Of a DNA stretch of 50,310 bases, positions 16,528 to 24,864 are shown one piece after another. The notes under the pieces were generated by a model, which saw nothing but the letters and a program-made list of their open reading frames with translations, was not told the DNA's origin and ran no database searches. The DNA lies in contig JADGQB010000005.1 of assembly GCA_017882145.1 (NCBI GenBank), positions 1 through 50,310 on the forward strand, written 5' to 3'. This DNA comes from Anaerolineales bacterium (GTDB taxonomy: Bacteria > Chloroflexota > Anaerolineae > Anaerolineales > Villigracilaceae). The translations under genes were made by a program, and so were the position numbers. Positions within the stretch are counted from its first letter, which is position 1, and each line of letters opens with the position of its first letter.

Positions 16528-17553
16528 TCAGCCTGCCACCAGCTTCAACGCCGCTGCGACTACACGCTGTACGGAGGGAACATACTCGTGCTCCAGGACA
16601 GGCGCGGTCGGCGCGGGCGTGTCGGGCGCGGCCACACGGGTGATAGGCGCATCCAGATGGAAGAAAACGGCCTCAGACAGGCGGGCAGCGACTTCTGCGC
16701 CCCAACCACCGGTGAGGTTGTCTTCCTCCACAATCAACACGCGGCCTGTTTTCTGGGCGGAAGCGATGAGCGGCTGCATGTCCAACGGGACGAGACAGCG
16801 CATGTCAATCACTTCGGCGTGGACGCCCTGCTGGTCCAGTTCTTGCGCGGCATCCATAGCCCGGTGCAACATAAGCATGTTGGCAAGCAGAGTCAAATCG
16901 CTGCCCTGGCGTTTGACCGCGACCGTGCCGAGCGGAATTTCGTAATCTTCTTCTGGCACGCTGACAACCTTGGCGGCAGAAGATGATTCCTTGCGCCCGC
17001 CTTTTCCACCGTACAGCAATTTATGTTCCAAAAATACGACCGGGTTGTTGTCGCGAATGGCGGCGAGCAGGAGTCCCTTGGCATCGTATGGATTGGATGG
17101 GCAGACAACTTTCAGACCGGGCGTGTGCATGAACCAGGCTTCAGTACTCTGCGCATGTTGCGCACCGCGCGCGGATGCGCCTACCGGCAAGCGTAGAACC
17201 ATCGGCACGGATACCTGCCCGTTGCTCATATAATGCATCTTGGCGGCCTGGTTGACCACCTGATCCATAGCGCAGAAGACGAAGTCGCCATATTGCATCT
17301 CGGCCACCGGACGCATCCCAACCAACGCCGCCCCAACGGCGGCACCGACGATGGCAATCTCGGAGATGGGTGTATCCATCACGCGGGCATGGCCGAATTC
17401 GTCCGACAAACCGAGGGTAACAGTAAAGCCGCCGCCAAACCCGCCTGGAATGCCGAGATCCTCACCGATAAGGAATACCGCCGGGTCGCTGAGCATGGCA
17501 ACACGCAATCCATCGCGCAACGCCTCGACCATGGTCATCTCGCGGGTGCTCAT
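16528..17553 (-). CDS. 2-oxoacid (or acetoin) dehydrogenase E1 component, beta subunit
   Basis: 341 residues, full length for E1-beta. It pairs with the alpha subunit encoded just upstream to decarboxylate a 2-oxoacid, or cleave acetoin, using thiamine diphosphate. Marks: REMTMVEALRDGL, IGEDLG, GFGGGF, VMDTPISEIAIVGAAVG, QYGDFVFCAMDQVVNQAAK, and the C-terminal transketolase-type domain with VEEDNLTGGWGAEVA. The start ATG overlaps the alpha stop (ATGA at 17553-17550). It is last in the minus-strand operon and ends before the terminator at 16406-16432. Sequence by eye does not separate pyruvate, branched-chain and acetoin types. Confidence 0.9.
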   Translation of the reverse strand: MSTREMTMVEALRDGLRVAMLSDPAVFLIGEDLGIPGGFGGGFTVTLGLSDEFGHARVMDTPISEIAIVGAAVGAALVGMRPVAEMQYGDFVFCAMDQVVNQAAKMHYMSNGQVSVPMVLRLPVGASARGAQHAQSTEAWFMHTPGLKVVCPSNPYDAKGLLLAAIRDNNPVVFLEHKLLYGGKGGRKESSSAAKVVSVPEEDYEIPLGTVAVKRQGSDLTLLANMLMLHRAMDAAQELDQQGVHAEVIDMRCLVPLDMQPLIASAQKTGRVLIVEEDNLTGGWGAEVAARLSEAVFFHLDAPITRVAAPDTPAPTAPVLEHEYVPSVQRVVAAALKLVAG

Positions 17554-18530
17554 TGGCGCTCCTTAAACACATGCAGGTATGTCTCTTCAATGCCCGGCTC
17601 CGGGCTGTTGCGGGCGAACTCAACTGCCTCCTCGACCTCCGACTGGCAGGCGTTTTCGATCGAAATAAGCTCTTCTTCAGCCATCCCACGCTCCGTGATC
17701 AGCAATGCCCGCATATGCGAAATTGGATCACGCTCGCGCCAACGCTGCACTTCATCGCGAGTCCGGTAGCCCCCAGGATCGCCGCGTGAGTGACCGGCGT
17801 AGCGGTAAGTTTTGCACTCCAGCAAAGTCGGACCATTTCCCTGCCGCGCTCTTTCCACGGCTTCCAGCACAGCATGATGGACGGCCAGAACGTCCATCCC
17901 ATCTACCACACGCCCCGGAATGCCGTATGCCGCGGCACGATCGGCAATATCCGTAATCCGGAGCATTGAAGAGATGGCGGTTGAGGCGCCGTACTGGTTG
18001 TTTTCACACACAAAGATGACGGGTGCGTTTTTCACTGCGGCGAGGTTGATCCCTTCGTGAAACGCGCCGATATTGGAGGCACCATCGCCGAAGAAACTCA
18101 CCGCCACGCGATCCTGCCCGCGCAATTGAAAGGCCAGCGCTGCTCCGGTGGCGATGGGAATGTTGGCGCCCACAATGGCGTTGGAGGGCATGGCGCCCAC
18201 GGTTACATCGGTGAGGTGCATCTGTCCGCCTTTGCCGCCTGCGCATCCGGTGGCCTTGCCCATTATTTCGGCGGCGATGCCGCGCGGCGAACTGCCGCGC
18301 GCGAGCAGATGACCCACAGGCCGGTGGGTGCTGAAGATCACATCATCGGGCCGGAGAGCTATGCACACGCCGACTGCCACCGCCTCCTGGCCCTGATATT
18401 GATGCAGGGTGCCAGGGACTGCCCCTTGCAGGAAGAGGGCATACAGATGATCCTCAAAGCGGCGAATCAATACCATCCGCCTGTACATCTCGCGTGCGGT
18501 CTCCAACGGAAAGTTGTCAGATCCGGTCAT
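17550..18530 (-). CDS. 2-oxoacid (or acetoin) dehydrogenase E1 component, alpha subunit
   Basis: 326 residues from the ATG at 18530, which overlaps the E2 stop by 4 bases; the longer open frame lies inside E2 and is rejected. The thiamine-diphosphate motif begins at GDGASN (148-153) and ends at ENNQYG (176-181). Other marks are MVLIRRFEDHLY, LHQYQGQEAVAVG, GGKGGQMHL, the phosphorylation-loop-like RYAGHSRGDPGGYRT and the short C-terminus. The length fits acetoin-dehydrogenase and bacterial pyruvate-dehydrogenase alpha chains equally well. It acts with the E1-beta and E2 of this operon. No E3 (lipoamide dehydrogenase) gene is present in the window. Confidence 0.9.
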   Translation of the reverse strand: MTGSDNFPLETAREMYRRMVLIRRFEDHLYALFLQGAVPGTLHQYQGQEAVAVGVCIALRPDDVIFSTHRPVGHLLARGSSPRGIAAEIMGKATGCAGGKGGQMHLTDVTVGAMPSNAIVGANIPIATGAALAFQLRGQDRVAVSFFGDGASNIGAFHEGINLAAVKNAPVIFVCENNQYGASTAISSMLRITDIADRAAAYGIPGRVVDGMDVLAVHHAVLEAVERARQGNGPTLLECKTYRYAGHSRGDPGGYRTRDEVQRWRERDPISHMRALLITERGMAEEELISIENACQSEVEEAVEFARNSPEPGIEETYLHVFKERQ

Positions 18531-19726
18531 TCGCTGATCTCCTTTGGTGGCTCGAGTGAGAGAACCAACGGGTTCTCCAGCAATTGTCTGAATTCTTCCA
18601 GGAACTTCGCGACGGTGATACCGTCCACGGCGCGATGGTCCACAGCGAGCGTTGCCGTCATCAGCCAGCGCAAGGCAAGATTTCCCTGCCAAGCCGCCGG
18701 TTGTTCCTTCGCTGCACCGAGCGCCAGGATGCCGGCTTCCGGTGGATTGATGACTGCGCTGAAACTATCCAGCCCATACATGCCCAGGTTGGAAACGGTG
18801 AAGGTTGCTCCGCTTAGCTGCAAACTAGAAAGTTGGCCGGTTTCGGCCCCTTTACGCAACCGGCGGGTGGCGGCTGCGAGCGTGAACAGATTCAGCCGGT
18901 CAGCATGACGCACCACCGGAACCAACAACCCCTCCGCCAGCCCGATCACCAACCCGATATGAATATCGTCATAGTACAGGATCTCCTCGCCGCGAAATGA
19001 AACATTGAGGGCGGGAGTTTGACGCAATGCCAGTGCGGCTGCACGCAGGACCAGGTCGGTGATCGTAGGTGCGGCCCAGCTGTTCTTCGCAGCCATCCCT
19101 GCAGCCTGCTTGAGCATGGCCCTGGCCTCGGTCATATCAATGACCACCGATCCTTGGAAATGCGGTACTTCAGCATTACTTCGTTGTGTGAGTTCAGCGA
19201 TGGCTCGCCGCATCGGTGAAAGAGGCACTCTTCGCAGCCCGATTTCGGCGCGAGTTTGACCAGCGGTGCGAACTATGTCGCGTTTTAGGATCTGGCCTTG
19301 CGAGCCGCTGGCTTTTACGGTCGCCAGATCGAGACCGAGTTCTGCCGCCATGCGGCGGGCGAGGGGGGAGGAAAGTTTCCGCCGGGTACGCAGGTCACTG
19401 GTCTCGGGGAGTTTTTCCTTTTGCTCTACCAGTTTTTCGATCCCGACCGCCTCCAACCCAGCTGAAATACTACTCAAGGGTTCCTCAAGTGTGTCGGACA
19501 TCCGGCCGACGACCGTTTGCACGGATACAATTGCTCCAGGGGAAACCAGGGTTTCACGTAAAAAGCCGTCGCGAAATGCTTCCACCTCTACGGTGGCTTT
19601 ATCGGTCGTTACCATGAACAACGCCGATCCGGATTTCACGAATTGCCCAGGCTTTACCAGCCATTCCTCCAAGACCACATCGCCGCCAGTAGCACCCAGG
19701 GCAGGGATGACAATTTCGTAGATCAA
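18527..19726 (-). CDS. Dihydrolipoamide acyltransferase (E2)
   Basis: 399 residues with the full E2 plan. A single lipoyl domain covers residues 1-78, with Lys43 in TTDKATVEV as the lipoylation site. A peripheral-subunit-binding domain lies at about 118-155 (SSPLARRMAAELGLDL, GSQGQILKRDI). The C-terminal catalytic domain ends with DHRAVDG (catalytic His364). Its start is a TTG overlapping the upstream stop (TTGA at 19726-19723), consistent with coupled translation. It transfers the acyl group made by E1 to CoA. The usual E3 partner must come from elsewhere in the genome. Confidence 0.9.
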   Translation of the reverse strand: MIYEIVIPALGATGGDVVLEEWLVKPGQFVKSGSALFMVTTDKATVEVEAFRDGFLRETLVSPGAIVSVQTVVGRMSDTLEEPLSSISAGLEAVGIEKLVEQKEKLPETSDLRTRRKLSSPLARRMAAELGLDLATVKASGSQGQILKRDIVRTAGQTRAEIGLRRVPLSPMRRAIAELTQRSNAEVPHFQGSVVIDMTEARAMLKQAAGMAAKNSWAAPTITDLVLRAAALALRQTPALNVSFRGEEILYYDDIHIGLVIGLAEGLLVPVVRHADRLNLFTLAAATRRLRKGAETGQLSSLQLSGATFTVSNLGMYGLDSFSAVINPPEAGILALGAAKEQPAAWQGNLALRWLMTATLAVDHRAVDGITVAKFLEEFRQLLENPLVLSLEPPKEISE

Positions 19727-20625
19727 GGCTGCTTCCTTTCGGGTTTAAATACTCTCATCCAATCTTCCACCATTTTCTGCAAAGCCAGCCTGCCAGCGGT
19801 GAGCACATCGCCGGCCTGCCCGGAGCCGATCACCTCGTATGGATTGTAATCGTCCCCGACCTGGATAGCTGCCTTGCGCACTGCTTCAAAGTAAGTCCGT
19901 TTGAGGGCGCTGCCCACATTGACCTTGCTAATGCCCAGATGGATGGCTTCGGATAGATCGTCGAAGTCCACAGATGTGGCCCCATGCAGGACCAGCGGAA
20001 CCTTGAGCGCCTGCTTGAGATTCGCAACGAGTGGGAGATTCAAGCGCACCCGCCTCCGTCCGTGCAAATGCGCCTGCCCAACGTTGACAGCAAATGCATC
20101 GACGCCGGTACGCTGGATAAAGTCCAGAGCGCGATCGGGATCAGTAAGATGCAGATCGTCGGGCATGGCTAAAAGTTCGCCTCCCACACCGGGCAGGGAT
20201 ACGCCTTCGCCTTCTACTGCCACCCCGGTCGCGTGCGCTTTTTTGACCACCGAGCGAACCTTTTCAACCTGACCGTCGAAGCTGAGCGTTTCGTCGCTGA
20301 ACATTACGAGACCAAAGCCGAGTTTGATGGCTTCCAACACCCATTCAAAATCCGGCGATTCGTTGAACACCAGGCAAGCAGGCACAGAAAGCCGGTGGAT
20401 GGCTTCAAGACCAAGCGCAGAATACAGACTGAGTGGTTCGTGCACTATCCGGTCTGGATGAGGCAGGTAGATGCCGCTGAAACCCAACAGGACCGGCGAG
20501 TGTGTTGCTTCGGCAGCGTCGCACACTGCCAGCAGGGATTCCAGATTCCAGCTTTCAAAGTAACCGACCGCATAGCCCCCACGCTGCGCATCGGACATCA
20601 AATCATTGAACGAGGCAAGTGGCAT
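19723..20625 (-). CDS. Class II ketose-bisphosphate-aldolase-like protein with altered active site
   Basis: 300 residues with the fold signatures of class II fructose/tagatose-bisphosphate aldolases: AVGYFESWNLESLLAVCDAAE, VEGEGVSLPG, NVGQAHLHGR, VPLVLHGATSV and SKVNVGSALKRTYFEA. The segment that normally reads LDH (catalytic Asp plus a zinc His) is LVFNES here, so both residues appear lost. The two later His (AHLHG, LHGAT) are kept. The intact paralogue at 46356-47258 keeps LHLDH, which makes the contrast clear. It may be an aldolase with a shifted mechanism, an epimerase-like enzyme or a binding protein. ATG at 20625 follows GGAG and lies 13 bases after the formyltransferase stop. Confidence 0.78.
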   Translation of the reverse strand: MPLASFNDLMSDAQRGGYAVGYFESWNLESLLAVCDAAEATHSPVLLGFSGIYLPHPDRIVHEPLSLYSALGLEAIHRLSVPACLVFNESPDFEWVLEAIKLGFGLVMFSDETLSFDGQVEKVRSVVKKAHATGVAVEGEGVSLPGVGGELLAMPDDLHLTDPDRALDFIQRTGVDAFAVNVGQAHLHGRRRVRLNLPLVANLKQALKVPLVLHGATSVDFDDLSEAIHLGISKVNVGSALKRTYFEAVRKAAIQVGDDYNPYEVIGSGQAGDVLTAGRLALQKMVEDWMRVFKPERKQP

Positions 20626-20638
20626 TATGCTCCATAAA

Positions 20639-21586
20639 CTACAAAATACTGCCGACCTTCAAGCCAAATTTTGCACAAAATGCTGCTAGGGAACGTTTGT
20701 CTTCGCCATCGGGCCGAACCCAGCGCACTGTCAGTGCATCCTGACCGGTTGCAAGGGTAGCGGAGTATCTTCCCAACCGGATCAATTCGCCGGGGACGGC
20801 TGTACCAGAATAAGGTTCAACCTTTGCGTTGAAGAAGTACACGCGCCGGCCCGCCACCATTCGCCAACATTCTCCCGGAGAGGTTTGTATCCAACGCCGC
20901 AGGCTCTCCGCCGGGCGAGTCAAATCTAGTTGGAAGTCTGCGTCGCTTACGGAGGAGAAATACGAGGCACCGGCTTGCGGTTGAGGTATTCGGGGCAGCG
21001 AACCTTTCGCTACGTCTGTGACCAGACGTGGAACCAGCGACACACTTTTATTGATGATGCGTTCATAAAGCGAGCTGACCGTATCCTGTTTGCGTGTGCG
21101 TACCCGCACTTGATATAGAACTTCGCCGGTATCAAAATGCGGATCCATCACATGCGCGCTGAGACCTGCCTGGCGCTCGCCGTTTCGCAATGCCCAGAAC
21201 ACAGGGTGCTTGCCACGATAGGCCGGAAGGAGTGAGGCGTGCAAGTTGACTGCGAGCAGGCGCGGAATAGAAAGAAGGGCTGGTTTGAGCAGGAACATGT
21301 ATCCGGCGGCGAGGAACAAGTCAGGAGAGAGACCGGCCAATGTTTCTTCAAAATCGGGTGTGTTGGGGTTGGACGGCTCGAAGACCGGCGTTCCACGCTC
21401 ACGGGAAGTGTCTACAAAACTGGGTTTACCACTCCCCGTCCAAGGGTTGGTGGACTGCCGCTTTGCAGGCGGCACATCCACCACCCCGGCCAGATCGCAG
21501 GGTGTATCCAGAAGAGGATTGAAGAACCGGTTGCTGAATACACTCTGCGAGTTTCCAAAGAAGATGATGCGCAGGTTTGCGCTCAC
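20639..21586 (-). CDS. Formyltransferase-fold protein (Fmt/PurN-like)
   Basis: 315 residues from the GTG at 21586, which overlaps the upstream stop as GTGA; a TTG one codon earlier is the alternative. The N-terminal half is the formyl-transferase hydrolase fold with the catalytic Asn and His in VNLHASLLPAYRGKHPVFWAL and the Asp in DPHFDTGEVLYQ. The C-terminal half resembles the Fmt C-terminal barrel (PGELIRLG, ALTVRWV). This suggests transfer of a formyl group from 10-formyltetrahydrofolate. A housekeeping role on Met-tRNA is unlikely inside a catabolic operon. The true acceptor is unknown; sugar-nucleotide formyltransferases show that other acceptors exist. Confidence 0.82.
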   Translation of the reverse strand: MSANLRIIFFGNSQSVFSNRFFNPLLDTPCDLAGVVDVPPAKRQSTNPWTGSGKPSFVDTSRERGTPVFEPSNPNTPDFEETLAGLSPDLFLAAGYMFLLKPALLSIPRLLAVNLHASLLPAYRGKHPVFWALRNGERQAGLSAHVMDPHFDTGEVLYQVRVRTRKQDTVSSLYERIINKSVSLVPRLVTDVAKGSLPRIPQPQAGASYFSSVSDADFQLDLTRPAESLRRWIQTSPGECWRMVAGRRVYFFNAKVEPYSGTAVPGELIRLGRYSATLATGQDALTVRWVRPDGEDKRSLAAFCAKFGLKVGSIL

Positions 21587-22440
21587 CAACGTTTTACACC
21601 TTCCGGATAATGAACTGCCTTGAACGAGGCGGCACGCTCTTGCAGCGGAACTTCCACCGCCATACGCTCGATACTTGAGCCCAACTGAATTCCGTGGCAG
21701 TCGGTGTGGTCGAGCATATATTGTGCATCTTCCTGATTTACCAGCGCCGCACCGTGCGCCAGCAGGATCACATCGGGTTTCAGCTTTTTTGCGATGGCAT
21801 AGTGCGACTGGCTGCGCTTCGCCATGTCTTCCAGCCCCTGGCTGGCGCTGTAGCCGGTGGAACCACCGCGTGTGATGCCGGCGTGATAGATGAAAATGTC
21901 GGGTGCAGCATCGCGCATCAACCGCTCGGCGTCGACTTCGTTGAAGGCGTAGCCGATAGTCAGCAGGTCCAACTCGTGGGCATAATTGAGCATGTCAATT
22001 TCGTGCTGGTAGCCCAGGCCGGTACCTTCCAGCGTTTTGCGGAAGTCGCCGTCGAACCATGCCACGGTCGGGAAGTTGTGGACCCCAGAAAAGCCGATGT
22101 GCTTGATATCTTCGAGGAACAAGCGCATATCGCGCAGAACGTCCACGCCGTTCAATCCAGCGATGACCGGTGTTTCCTTGACTTGCGGAAGAACTTCGCG
22201 CTTTCCGACCTGATAGACCATTTCATTGGCGTCAGCCATGGGCAACATCCCAGCCAGTGAGCCGTAGCCCTGCATGCGGAAGTAGCCGGTGTTGTACACG
22301 CCCAGGATATCCACGCCTCCACGTTCGATGAACTTGGCTGCAATCCCGTTGCCCGCGCCGGTCATTACCAATGGCTTGCCGCGTTTAATCTCGGCCCATA
22401 GGCGGTCGAGGAACTGTTGGCGGGTATACCGTTTTGCCAT
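21583..22440 (-). CDS. Phosphoenolpyruvate-hydrolase-like TIM-barrel protein (Tm-1 C-terminal type)
   Basis: 285 residues. It belongs to the PEP hydrolase family related to PEP mutase/isocitrate lyase and to the C-terminal half of plant Tm-1. Marks: GKPLVMTGAGNGIAAKFIERGG, DILGVYNTGYFRMQGYGSLAG, GFSGVHNFPTV, FIYHAGITRGGSTGY and LLAHGAALVNQEDAQY. An AGGAGG 6 bases before the ATG at 22440 fixes the start. It lies 9 bases after the Tm-1-like gene, a pairing that is fused in the plant protein. The reaction is unproven; C-C bond cleavage or hydrolysis of an enol phosphate is suggested by the fold. Confidence 0.85.
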   Translation of the reverse strand: MAKRYTRQQFLDRLWAEIKRGKPLVMTGAGNGIAAKFIERGGVDILGVYNTGYFRMQGYGSLAGMLPMADANEMVYQVGKREVLPQVKETPVIAGLNGVDVLRDMRLFLEDIKHIGFSGVHNFPTVAWFDGDFRKTLEGTGLGYQHEIDMLNYAHELDLLTIGYAFNEVDAERLMRDAAPDIFIYHAGITRGGSTGYSASQGLEDMAKRSQSHYAIAKKLKPDVILLAHGAALVNQEDAQYMLDHTDCHGIQLGSSIERMAVEVPLQERAASFKAVHYPEGVKRW

Positions 22441-22449
22441 AACAACCTC

Positions 22450-23670
22450 CTATTTTTTAGCCCGGATCAAATCGATCAGAGTCTGAGCGGCTTCGACCGC
22501 GAACGCCGGGTCATCGATGTAAGTGTCGCGCTCGATCAAGCGGATGTTTTTCGGCAAGTCTTTCTTCAGCGCTTCCACGAAAGCCGCATCAGCCTCAGGA
22601 TCGTAAAATCCAAAGCCTTTCACTGCGTAACTGTCATAGCCGGCAGTTGGGATCATGAAGACAGCATTGCCCTTGGTTGATTGCAGGCGGCGGGCGACTT
22701 CCTTGCCCACCTCTGCCATCTCCTGCTTGTTCAGGCGTACATCGGTGATCTGCGGGCTGTGCCGGATGAGGGTGCGGGTATTGTAAGGTGACGGGACGGT
22801 CTCCGGTTCGCCATACACCAGAACTTCAATCGCGCCGGGGCACAGCACTTGCGGCAGGCCGAGTTTTCCGGCAGTCGTTAACCGGTCCGGTCCGCCCGCC
22901 AGCATGGCATGGTACATCTCGTTGGATACCTCGATGGTCGAGTAATCCAGCACCGCGGCAATCAGCCCTTCTTTCATCATTTGTTCCATGGCGCGCCCGC
23001 CGGGACCGATGGCATGGAATGTGATGGTCTCAAAGCCAGCGGCCTCCAGCACCTCGGCAGCTTTCATCGCACCCAGGGTGGTGATGCCCACAGTAGTGAC
23101 AGCAACGAGAGGTTTCTCTCTATGCTCCAGCTTTACTTCCACGCCGGCCATGCCGCACACCGCTCCAGCGGCATTCGCCAGAATCTTACGCATGACTGGA
23201 TTTAACCCCATAATATCTGTGACAGAGAACATCATGGTGATGTCACGGATGTCGACCCACGGGCCGACATTGCCGGAAGCCATGGTGGACACCATCACTT
23301 TCGGAAAACCATAGGGTAGGGCGCGCATCACATGGGTACTGAGGGTAGTTCCCTGTGTCCCACCCATTGCCACGATACCGTGGATCTTGCCTTCCTCCGC
23401 CAACCGGGAGACAATTTTCGTAGCTCCCTCGGCCATTACCGGCGCAGCCACATCGCGGGATGGATTCGCCAGGATTTTAGCCAGCGGCATCCCACCTGCC
23501 TCGGCCACTTGCTCGCGGGTGATATCCGGAAGGGTGCCGGGAGTGCCGGTCACACCCGTATCCACCACCAGGGCTTTATCGCCGAACTTCTCAATCTGCT
23601 CGCGCAGATACTGTGCTTCGCGGCCTTTGGTATCCAGGGTCGCCAGCACAACAATCGTTTTTCCACTCAT
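22450..23670 (-). CDS. Tm-1-like ATP-binding domain protein (UPF0261)
   Basis: 406 residues, full length for UPF0261. It has TIVVLATLDTKGREAQYLREQI at the N-terminus, then VVDTGVTGTPG, GIVAMGGTQGTTLSTHVMRALP, VSTMASGNVGPWV, FHAIGPGGRAMEQMM, and the C-terminal MIPTAGYDSYAVKGFGFYD. The family resembles the N-terminal ATP-binding half of tomato Tm-1; its metabolic reaction is not established. It is tightly followed by the PEP-hydrolase-like gene, and the two are presumably partners. AAGGA lies before the ATG at 23670. Context suggests a role on a sugar-derived acid or phosphate. Confidence 0.85.
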   Translation of the reverse strand: MSGKTIVVLATLDTKGREAQYLREQIEKFGDKALVVDTGVTGTPGTLPDITREQVAEAGGMPLAKILANPSRDVAAPVMAEGATKIVSRLAEEGKIHGIVAMGGTQGTTLSTHVMRALPYGFPKVMVSTMASGNVGPWVDIRDITMMFSVTDIMGLNPVMRKILANAAGAVCGMAGVEVKLEHREKPLVAVTTVGITTLGAMKAAEVLEAAGFETITFHAIGPGGRAMEQMMKEGLIAAVLDYSTIEVSNEMYHAMLAGGPDRLTTAGKLGLPQVLCPGAIEVLVYGEPETVPSPYNTRTLIRHSPQITDVRLNKQEMAEVGKEVARRLQSTKGNAVFMIPTAGYDSYAVKGFGFYDPEADAAFVEALKKDLPKNIRLIERDTYIDDPAFAVEAAQTLIDLIRAKK

Positions 23671-23682
23671 GGTATTGTGTCC

Positions 23683-24513
23683 TTATCCGACCTGTTTTCG
23701 AAGCCACTCGACCGAAGGCTGGATGTTTTCTTCGCCATCGCTTTCGATTGACAAGACTCCATCCCAATCGGTCTGCTTGAGGAATTGGACACACCCGGCG
23801 ATGTTGGGGGCGTTGACGCCCTGCCCGATGGGCACCACCGAGGCCGAGATACCGGTCTCCTTGCCGCGCACTGCATCGGCCAAGCCCTTGCTCACATCCT
23901 TCACGTGTACATGGTTGACGTACTTGCGTACTTTTTTCAGGAAAGCGAGCGGATCGTTGCCGGCGATGAAAGTGTTGCCAGTGTCGAAGTTGATCTGAAC
24001 GTACTCGGACTGGAACGGCTCGATAATCCCCAAGAGTGTCTCGGTATTATTGGTGAAAGGGCCGTGCGGTTCCACGTTGATGATCACTTTGTGATTCTCT
24101 GCGAACGGGACACATTGCGACAGGTGGTAGCGGATGCGGTCGAGTTGTTCTTTATCCGAGAGGCCCGGAAGTTTGGTCTGGCCGTCGGTGGTATCCACCC
24201 GCGTGCAGCCGAGTAGACCGGCAAAGATAATCCCGCGCTGGATGAATTCAATACACTCCCAGCGATTAATCGGGAAGGAAACGTCAAACTCCGAGACTTT
24301 CAAGCCGTACTTGTCGAGTTTCTTACGCAGTTCCAGCGGGTCACTGTCCAATGGGATAAAGGGCGCAAAGCCCAGTCCGGTGAAGAATTCCGCGCCTCCC
24401 ACGGCTTCAAGTTCGCAATATTCCACACCTTGTTTGGCTATTTTATCGAAACAATAGTCAATTGGTTTGTCTGCGTGGCGCCAGTTGTCAGTGTTGATTC
24501 CGATCTTGATCAT
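23683..24513 (-). CDS. Sugar phosphate isomerase/epimerase (xylose-isomerase-like TIM barrel)
   Basis: 276 residues, AP-endonuclease-2/IolE-type TIM barrel. Likely divalent-metal ligands are the Glu in INVEPHG, the Asp in NFDTGNT, the His in HVHVKDVS and the Glu in LSIESDG, the usual E-D-H-E set. GGAG precedes the ATG at 24513. It is first in the eight-gene minus operon, directly after the candidate promoter at 24621-24647. It probably isomerises, epimerises or dehydrates the sugar that enters this pathway; the substrate cannot be read from sequence. Confidence 0.84.
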   Translation of the reverse strand: MIKIGINTDNWRHADKPIDYCFDKIAKQGVEYCELEAVGGAEFFTGLGFAPFIPLDSDPLELRKKLDKYGLKVSEFDVSFPINRWECIEFIQRGIIFAGLLGCTRVDTTDGQTKLPGLSDKEQLDRIRYHLSQCVPFAENHKVIINVEPHGPFTNNTETLLGIIEPFQSEYVQINFDTGNTFIAGNDPLAFLKKVRKYVNHVHVKDVSKGLADAVRGKETGISASVVPIGQGVNAPNIAGCVQFLKQTDWDGVLSIESDGEENIQPSVEWLRKQVG

Positions 24514-24647: not shown

Positions 24648-24864
24648 TAAACATAACATCACCAATCAAGTTTTGATTTACTAAACCTGTCAACCTTCAC
24701 CTATGGACGAAAAACCCATCCCACCCAACCGAGCAAAACTAACGGAATCGTAAAAACGATACAGATTCTCAGTTTTACATGAAAAGATGGAAGAGGATTC
24801 GGGGTGCGCCCATGCCTTTTGTCATTACCAATAGTGAATAATGTTATTATTTTCATATTGCTTC

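Follow-up and report, generated by a model that had tools for sequence, protein, structure and literature searches.

The formyltransferase gene described here, carried by the minus strand of a 50,310-nucleotide stretch of DNA from an Anaerolineales bacterium (hereafter the window), very probably encodes a dedicated enzyme other than methionyl-tRNA formyltransferase (Fmt), linked to a cluster that specifies UPF0261, PEP_hydrolase-like, class II aldolase-like and 2-oxoacid dehydrogenase E1 and E2 proteins. The main evidence for this predicted role is the conserved synteny of the cluster, combined with a coexisting Fmt. A formyltransferase that is distinct from the protein-start enzyme, and that keeps this pairing in six genomes, suggests an undescribed form of one-carbon handling in sugar breakdown.

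The formyltransferase gene and its conserved operon

The open reading frame is 315 codons long and runs from a GTG at 21586 to a stop codon at 20641-20639; a TTG at 21589 is an alternative possible start. Pfam recognises Formyl_trans_N (PF00551; 2.5e-28, 99.5 bits against a gathering score of 26.1) and Formyl_trans_C (PF02911; 3.3e-08, 34.1 bits against 21.1). A sequence-only reading had stated that the catalytic Asn, His and Asp are kept; indeed, Asn114, His116 and Asp152 were found, as was Ser118, the serine of the SLLP motif, and all four residues are invariant in an alignment of the six orthologues with two true Fmts (those of E. coli and of the bacterium's own genome). AlphaFold2 predicts the structure with confidence (mean pLDDT 92.9), and the solved folds closest to the model are Fmt (TM about 0.86) and ArnA (about 0.85). 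By its two domains and catalytic residues, the product is a member of the formyltransferase superfamily. The full-length family matches and the synteny in six genomes are far beyond chance.

The operon consists of eight minus-strand genes running from 24513 down to 16528 (Table 1). The earlier placement of the formyltransferase between an aldolase-like and a PEP-hydrolase-like gene, within a catabolic operon, was borne out by the Pfam matches of both neighbours and by the conservation of this setting across the orthologue genomes. The reading frames had also been described as overlapping, which is true of the upstream junction, where PEP_hydrolase and formyltransferase share four bases (GTGA), and not of the downstream one, where a 13-base gap precedes the aldolase-like gene. 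Further overlaps join aldolase to E2 (TTGA), E2 to E1-alpha (ATGA) and E1-alpha to E1-beta (ATGA). The translated E2 displays a lipoyl DKA and an acyltransferase DHRAVDG motif; additional E1 genes occur in the genome, the operon set thus not being its only one. Adjoining the operon are a putative ROK-type regulator gene, diverging at 24804, and putative sugar ABC transporter genes, all named from their translations.

Table 1. Genes of the operon in the window, listed in operon order.
Gene product	Coordinates	Strand	Evidence and remarks
Xylose-isomerase-like TIM barrel (first gene)	23683..24513	minus	PF01261
UPF0261 (Tm-1-like)	22450..23670	minus	PF06792 + PF23189; 78-81% identical in 4/5 orthologous clusters
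PEP_hydrolase-like TIM barrel (PF09370)	21583..22440	minus	Pfam 7.8e-91; 80-84% identical in 5/5 orthologous clusters
Formyltransferase, predicted non-Fmt subfamily	20639..21586	minus	PF00551 + PF02911, catalytic residues, five orthologues, tree
Class II aldolase-like, altered active site (FNE for LDH)	19723..20625	minus	PF01116 5e-51; alignment of five
2-oxoacid dehydrogenase E2 (lipoyl, E3-binding and acyltransferase domains)	18527..19726	minus	Pfam; junction; TTG start
2-oxoacid dehydrogenase E1-alpha	17550..18530	minus	PF00676 1.6e-90; start ATG at 18530; ATGA junction with E2
2-oxoacid dehydrogenase E1-beta	16528..17553	minus	PF02779 + PF02780; ATGA junction with E1-alpha

Orthologues were sought in 400 genomes of the phylum (Chloroflexota) and 396 of the bacterium's own class, other phyla being covered only through plasmid, genome-contig and viral collections. 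The phylum sample yielded one orthologue, G182, in another class, and the own-class sample four more (G666, G629, G697 and G459); these five Chloroflexota proteins, from two classes, are 48-59% identical to the window formyltransferase. No additional orthologue was seen in 29 genomes of the class of G182, and a scan of viral contigs gave no match; one of genome contigs with the formyltransferase as single protein gave one distant relative. Plasmids carried no orthologue, their best matches showing about 31% identity, and those that were read have biosynthetic, oxalate or ordinary def-fmt neighbourhoods.

Several sampled genomes are incomplete and split into many contigs, and partners were counted within the stretches that were read. 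The PEP_hydrolase gene lies directly upstream of the formyltransferase in all six genomes, and UPF0261 is present in five clusters (it was not seen in the G629 stretch and may lie elsewhere in that genome). The aldolase-like gene directly follows in four of the six (window, G629, G697 and G459); it is missing from the G666 stretch, and the G182 contig ends at that point. E1 genes accompany five (window, G182, G629, G697 and G666, where alpha and beta form one open frame), and E2 was recognised in the window, G182, G629 and G666, not in the stretch of G697, where it may lie elsewhere. Since the G459 stretch contains neither E1 nor E2, and that of G666 no aldolase-like gene, not all partners appear to be obligatory. 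Identities to the window proteins are 59-60% for the aldolase-like protein and 49-60% for E1, and a partial xylose-isomerase-like copy, 70% identical, adjoins the G182 cluster.

PEP_hydrolase and UPF0261, to which the tomato Tm-1 resistance protein belongs, form an adjacent pair that is widespread in Chloroflexota and also occurs on Pseudomonadota, Actinomycetota and haloarchaeal plasmids. Neither the other Chloroflexota pairs that were inspected nor the annotated plasmid copies have a recognised formyltransferase beside them; the Chloroflexota result led us to reject the idea that a formyltransferase accompanies every such pair. In the 400-genome scan, the next PEP_hydrolase after that of G182 (80%) was only 47-48% identical, and, judged from sequence comparison, the formyltransferase-linked copies are a separate subfamily. 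The window genome itself holds a second pair (L133, G000:C307:1-12500; 42% PEP_hydrolase identity) with no formyltransferase nearby. On a Halobaculum marinum plasmid (L098:7998-11369), genes for PEP_hydrolase, a cupin, a Tm-1-like (UPF0261) protein and a short E2 follow one another, linking the pair to E2 chemistry for a second time. The literature searched gives no reaction for UPF0261 or PEP_hydrolase, nor do the papers on PDB 9mpy and on formyltransferase/RuBisCO-like clusters. For such widespread proteins, a conserved association with folate formyltransferase and 2-oxoacid dehydrogenase genes is a concrete biochemical hint.

Separation from the housekeeping Fmt

The window genome (4.15 Mb in 448 contigs, 86.75% complete) contains two PF00551 genes, namely that of the window and a canonical fmt (G000:C317). 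Another fmt adjoining def had been suggested as a point to check: the separate fmt does exist, followed by a glycerol-kinase-like gene, and a def gene was not seen within the 11 kb preceding it. Neither of the two PF00551 matches is a PurN, an absence that is not proven at this level of genome completeness. A canonical Fmt-like protein is likewise encoded in all six orthologue-bearing genomes.

The best curated profile match of the window protein is still fmt (4e-37); against the TIGR00460 (Fmt) cut-off of 201.5 bits, however, it scores 128 and its G182 orthologue 141, compared with 295.6 for the genome's own Fmt. The PDRPAGRG loop, which helps tRNA recognition in E. coli Fmt, is present in that protein and in the own Fmt, and absent from all six orthologues. 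Where Fmt has SLLPRWRGAAPIQ, five of the six orthologues carry the motif SLLPAYRGKHPVFWALRNGER or a form of it with no more than two changes.

In the tree, the six orthologues form a clade (100/100) outside the Fmt clade (99/96). Grouping them with the Fmts of their own class was rejected (p-AU 1.35e-10), whereas a position as sister to all Fmts was not (p-AU 0.105), both groupings having been chosen for testing after a first tree had been viewed. The phylogeny called for by the sequence-only reading thus sets the protein outside the true Fmt clade, and its genome has a separate fmt. An assignment as the housekeeping Fmt was rejected on the score under the cut-off, the missing loop, the tree position and the separate fmt. 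Hence, a gene labelled methionyl-tRNA formyltransferase by similarity alone can be something else.

Proposed role and competing explanations

Enzymes with this fold catalyse formyl transfer between 10-formyl-THF and an acceptor. In our proposal, the UPF0261, PEP_hydrolase-like, aldolase-like and E1/E2 proteins would make up one sugar or acid-sugar catabolic unit, whose pathway would cleave a carbon-carbon bond and leave one carbon at the formyl level, which, we infer, may be present as a formyl thioester. The formyltransferase would then pass the formyl unit to THF, yielding 10-formyl-THF (both direction and acceptor are our suggestion), while the E1/E2 complex would convert the remainder of the molecule to an acyl-CoA. 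The FTHFS gene of the window genome indicates that 10-formyl-THF metabolism is available, and, together with the thioester chemistry of E1/E2 in the operon, makes one-carbon transfer to THF the likeliest reading. A further lead comes from a Paracoccaceae plasmid, on which a fold member is flanked by oxc/frc and fhs. The earlier suggestion that the enzyme handles a formyl group from sugar breakdown would fit the gene context. Taken as a whole, the proposal of a THF-dependent formyltransferase that channels a formyl carbon from this catabolic unit to THF is a tentative one, to which we give somewhat less than even chances. In its most specific form, a route through UPF0261, the PEP_hydrolase-like TIM barrel, the altered class II aldolase and the 2-oxoacid dehydrogenase would release one carbon at the formyl level, to be captured on THF with neither free formate nor ATP-dependent activation; that all of this holds is rather unlikely.

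The neighbouring genes offer some clues to the chemistry. All five aligned aldolase-like proteins (the window protein, L160:8416-9315, L161:6140-7039, L162:10424-11323 and L064:8731-9651) have FNE in place of LDH, that is, Asn for Asp and Glu for one His; the LDH motif of canonical class II aldolases comprises the catalytic Asp and a zinc-binding His, both replaced in this subfamily. In G362, the aldolase-like gene and E1-alpha/E1-beta are followed by a frame (L064:11710-12273) that, read by eye, is lipoyl and E3-binding-like without an acyltransferase domain. The G629 and G697 clusters also encode a RuBisCO-like protein, together with an FGGY kinase resembling rhamnulokinase, and that of G666 a DRL/SAF oxidoreductase and the C-terminal half of a transketolase; this suggests sugar or acid-sugar chemistry, as far as such assignments go, the xylose/rhamnose-isomerase-like protein and the kinase of G629 being under the curated NCBIfam cut-offs. 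The RuBisCO-like proteins (L160:11415-12842 and L161:1687-3036) fall under every curated NCBIfam cut-off, the closest family being 2,3-diketo-5-methylthiopentyl-1-phosphate enolase. As it is not encoded in the window, the RuBisCO-like protein was left out of the core set.

Most characterised members of the fold other than Fmt formylate amines or hydroxyls from 10-formyl-THF, and the window enzyme could work in this forward direction, as sugar and siderophore N-formyltransferases do, on a pathway intermediate or on a protein of the operon. Besides being the common mode, forward formylation would agree with the ArnA-like YRGxxPxFWxLxNGE motif and with the rank of ArnA among the nearest solved folds. 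However, none of the eight genes in the operon is an aminotransferase or nucleotide-sugar gene, and the tree shows no grouping with ArnA, although such a grouping is not rejected; this explanation is a possible one that we doubt. A second explanation holds that the enzyme is in effect a 10-formyl-THF hydrolase, PurU-like or FDH-like, releasing formate and regenerating THF for the pathway. Hydrolytic members of the fold are known, namely PurU and the FDH hydrolase domain, and the structure matches of the model include FDH domains; nevertheless, the score for PurU is far below its cut-off (33.8 against 285.95 bits for TIGR00655), the C-terminal domain typical of transferases is kept and the other operon enzymes show no clear need for THF, making hydrolysis improbable. 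A second, divergent methionyl-tRNA formyltransferase, placed in the operon by chance, is very improbable: the best profile, the nearest fold and the sister position would accommodate it, but not the scores of 128 and 141 bits, the absence of the loop and the canonical fmt in all six genomes, the rejected own-class grouping or the conserved synteny with the catabolic genes in both classes.

Transfer to THF remains most likely, formylation of an amine coming close behind and hydrolysis and a second tRNA enzyme lower. The conserved link yields a small, testable set of proteins.

Comparison with known formyltransferases

The window protein shares with Fmt (TIGR00460) its two-domain architecture, its catalytic Asn/His/Asp and its fold, and differs from it in the sub-threshold curated score, the missing PDRPAGRG loop, the separate clade and the catabolic operon. 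PurN (TIGR00639) is a poor match, at 70 bits against a cut-off of 150.1. With ArnA and the sugar N-formyltransferases it has in common the fold (TM about 0.85) and a motif of the YRG...FW/NW...NGE type; unlike theirs, its operon contains no amino-sugar genes, whereas a sugar N-formyltransferase locus on a plasmid has an aminotransferase/nucleotide-sugar setting, and no common clade is supported (grouping with ArnA is not rejected, p-AU 0.117).

The N-terminal domain of HypX belongs to the same fold, and our thiol acceptor is a model borrowed from it. In contrast to the window protein, whose 315 residues comprise the formyltransferase domains only, HypX has a fused enoyl-CoA-hydratase-like domain and lacks the catalytic Asn (segment VVHPG); its fold similarity is lower (TM 0.55-0.57), and the two do not group in the tree (grouping not rejected, p-AU 0.14; HypX is a long branch). 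The formyltransferase-like gene of the Paracoccaceae plasmid (CP031587, L112:5001-5918), in which the catalytic Asn is replaced by Cys, encodes a protein that lies near HypX in one tree (83/91) and is a candidate formyl-CoA:THF formyltransferase. The FDH hydrolase domain uses phosphopantetheine, and HypX has been proposed to use CoA, direct experimental results for the latter being not yet available (PMC6802093). Between them, the FDH phosphopantetheine and the CoA proposed for HypX give thiol acceptors a precedent within the fold.
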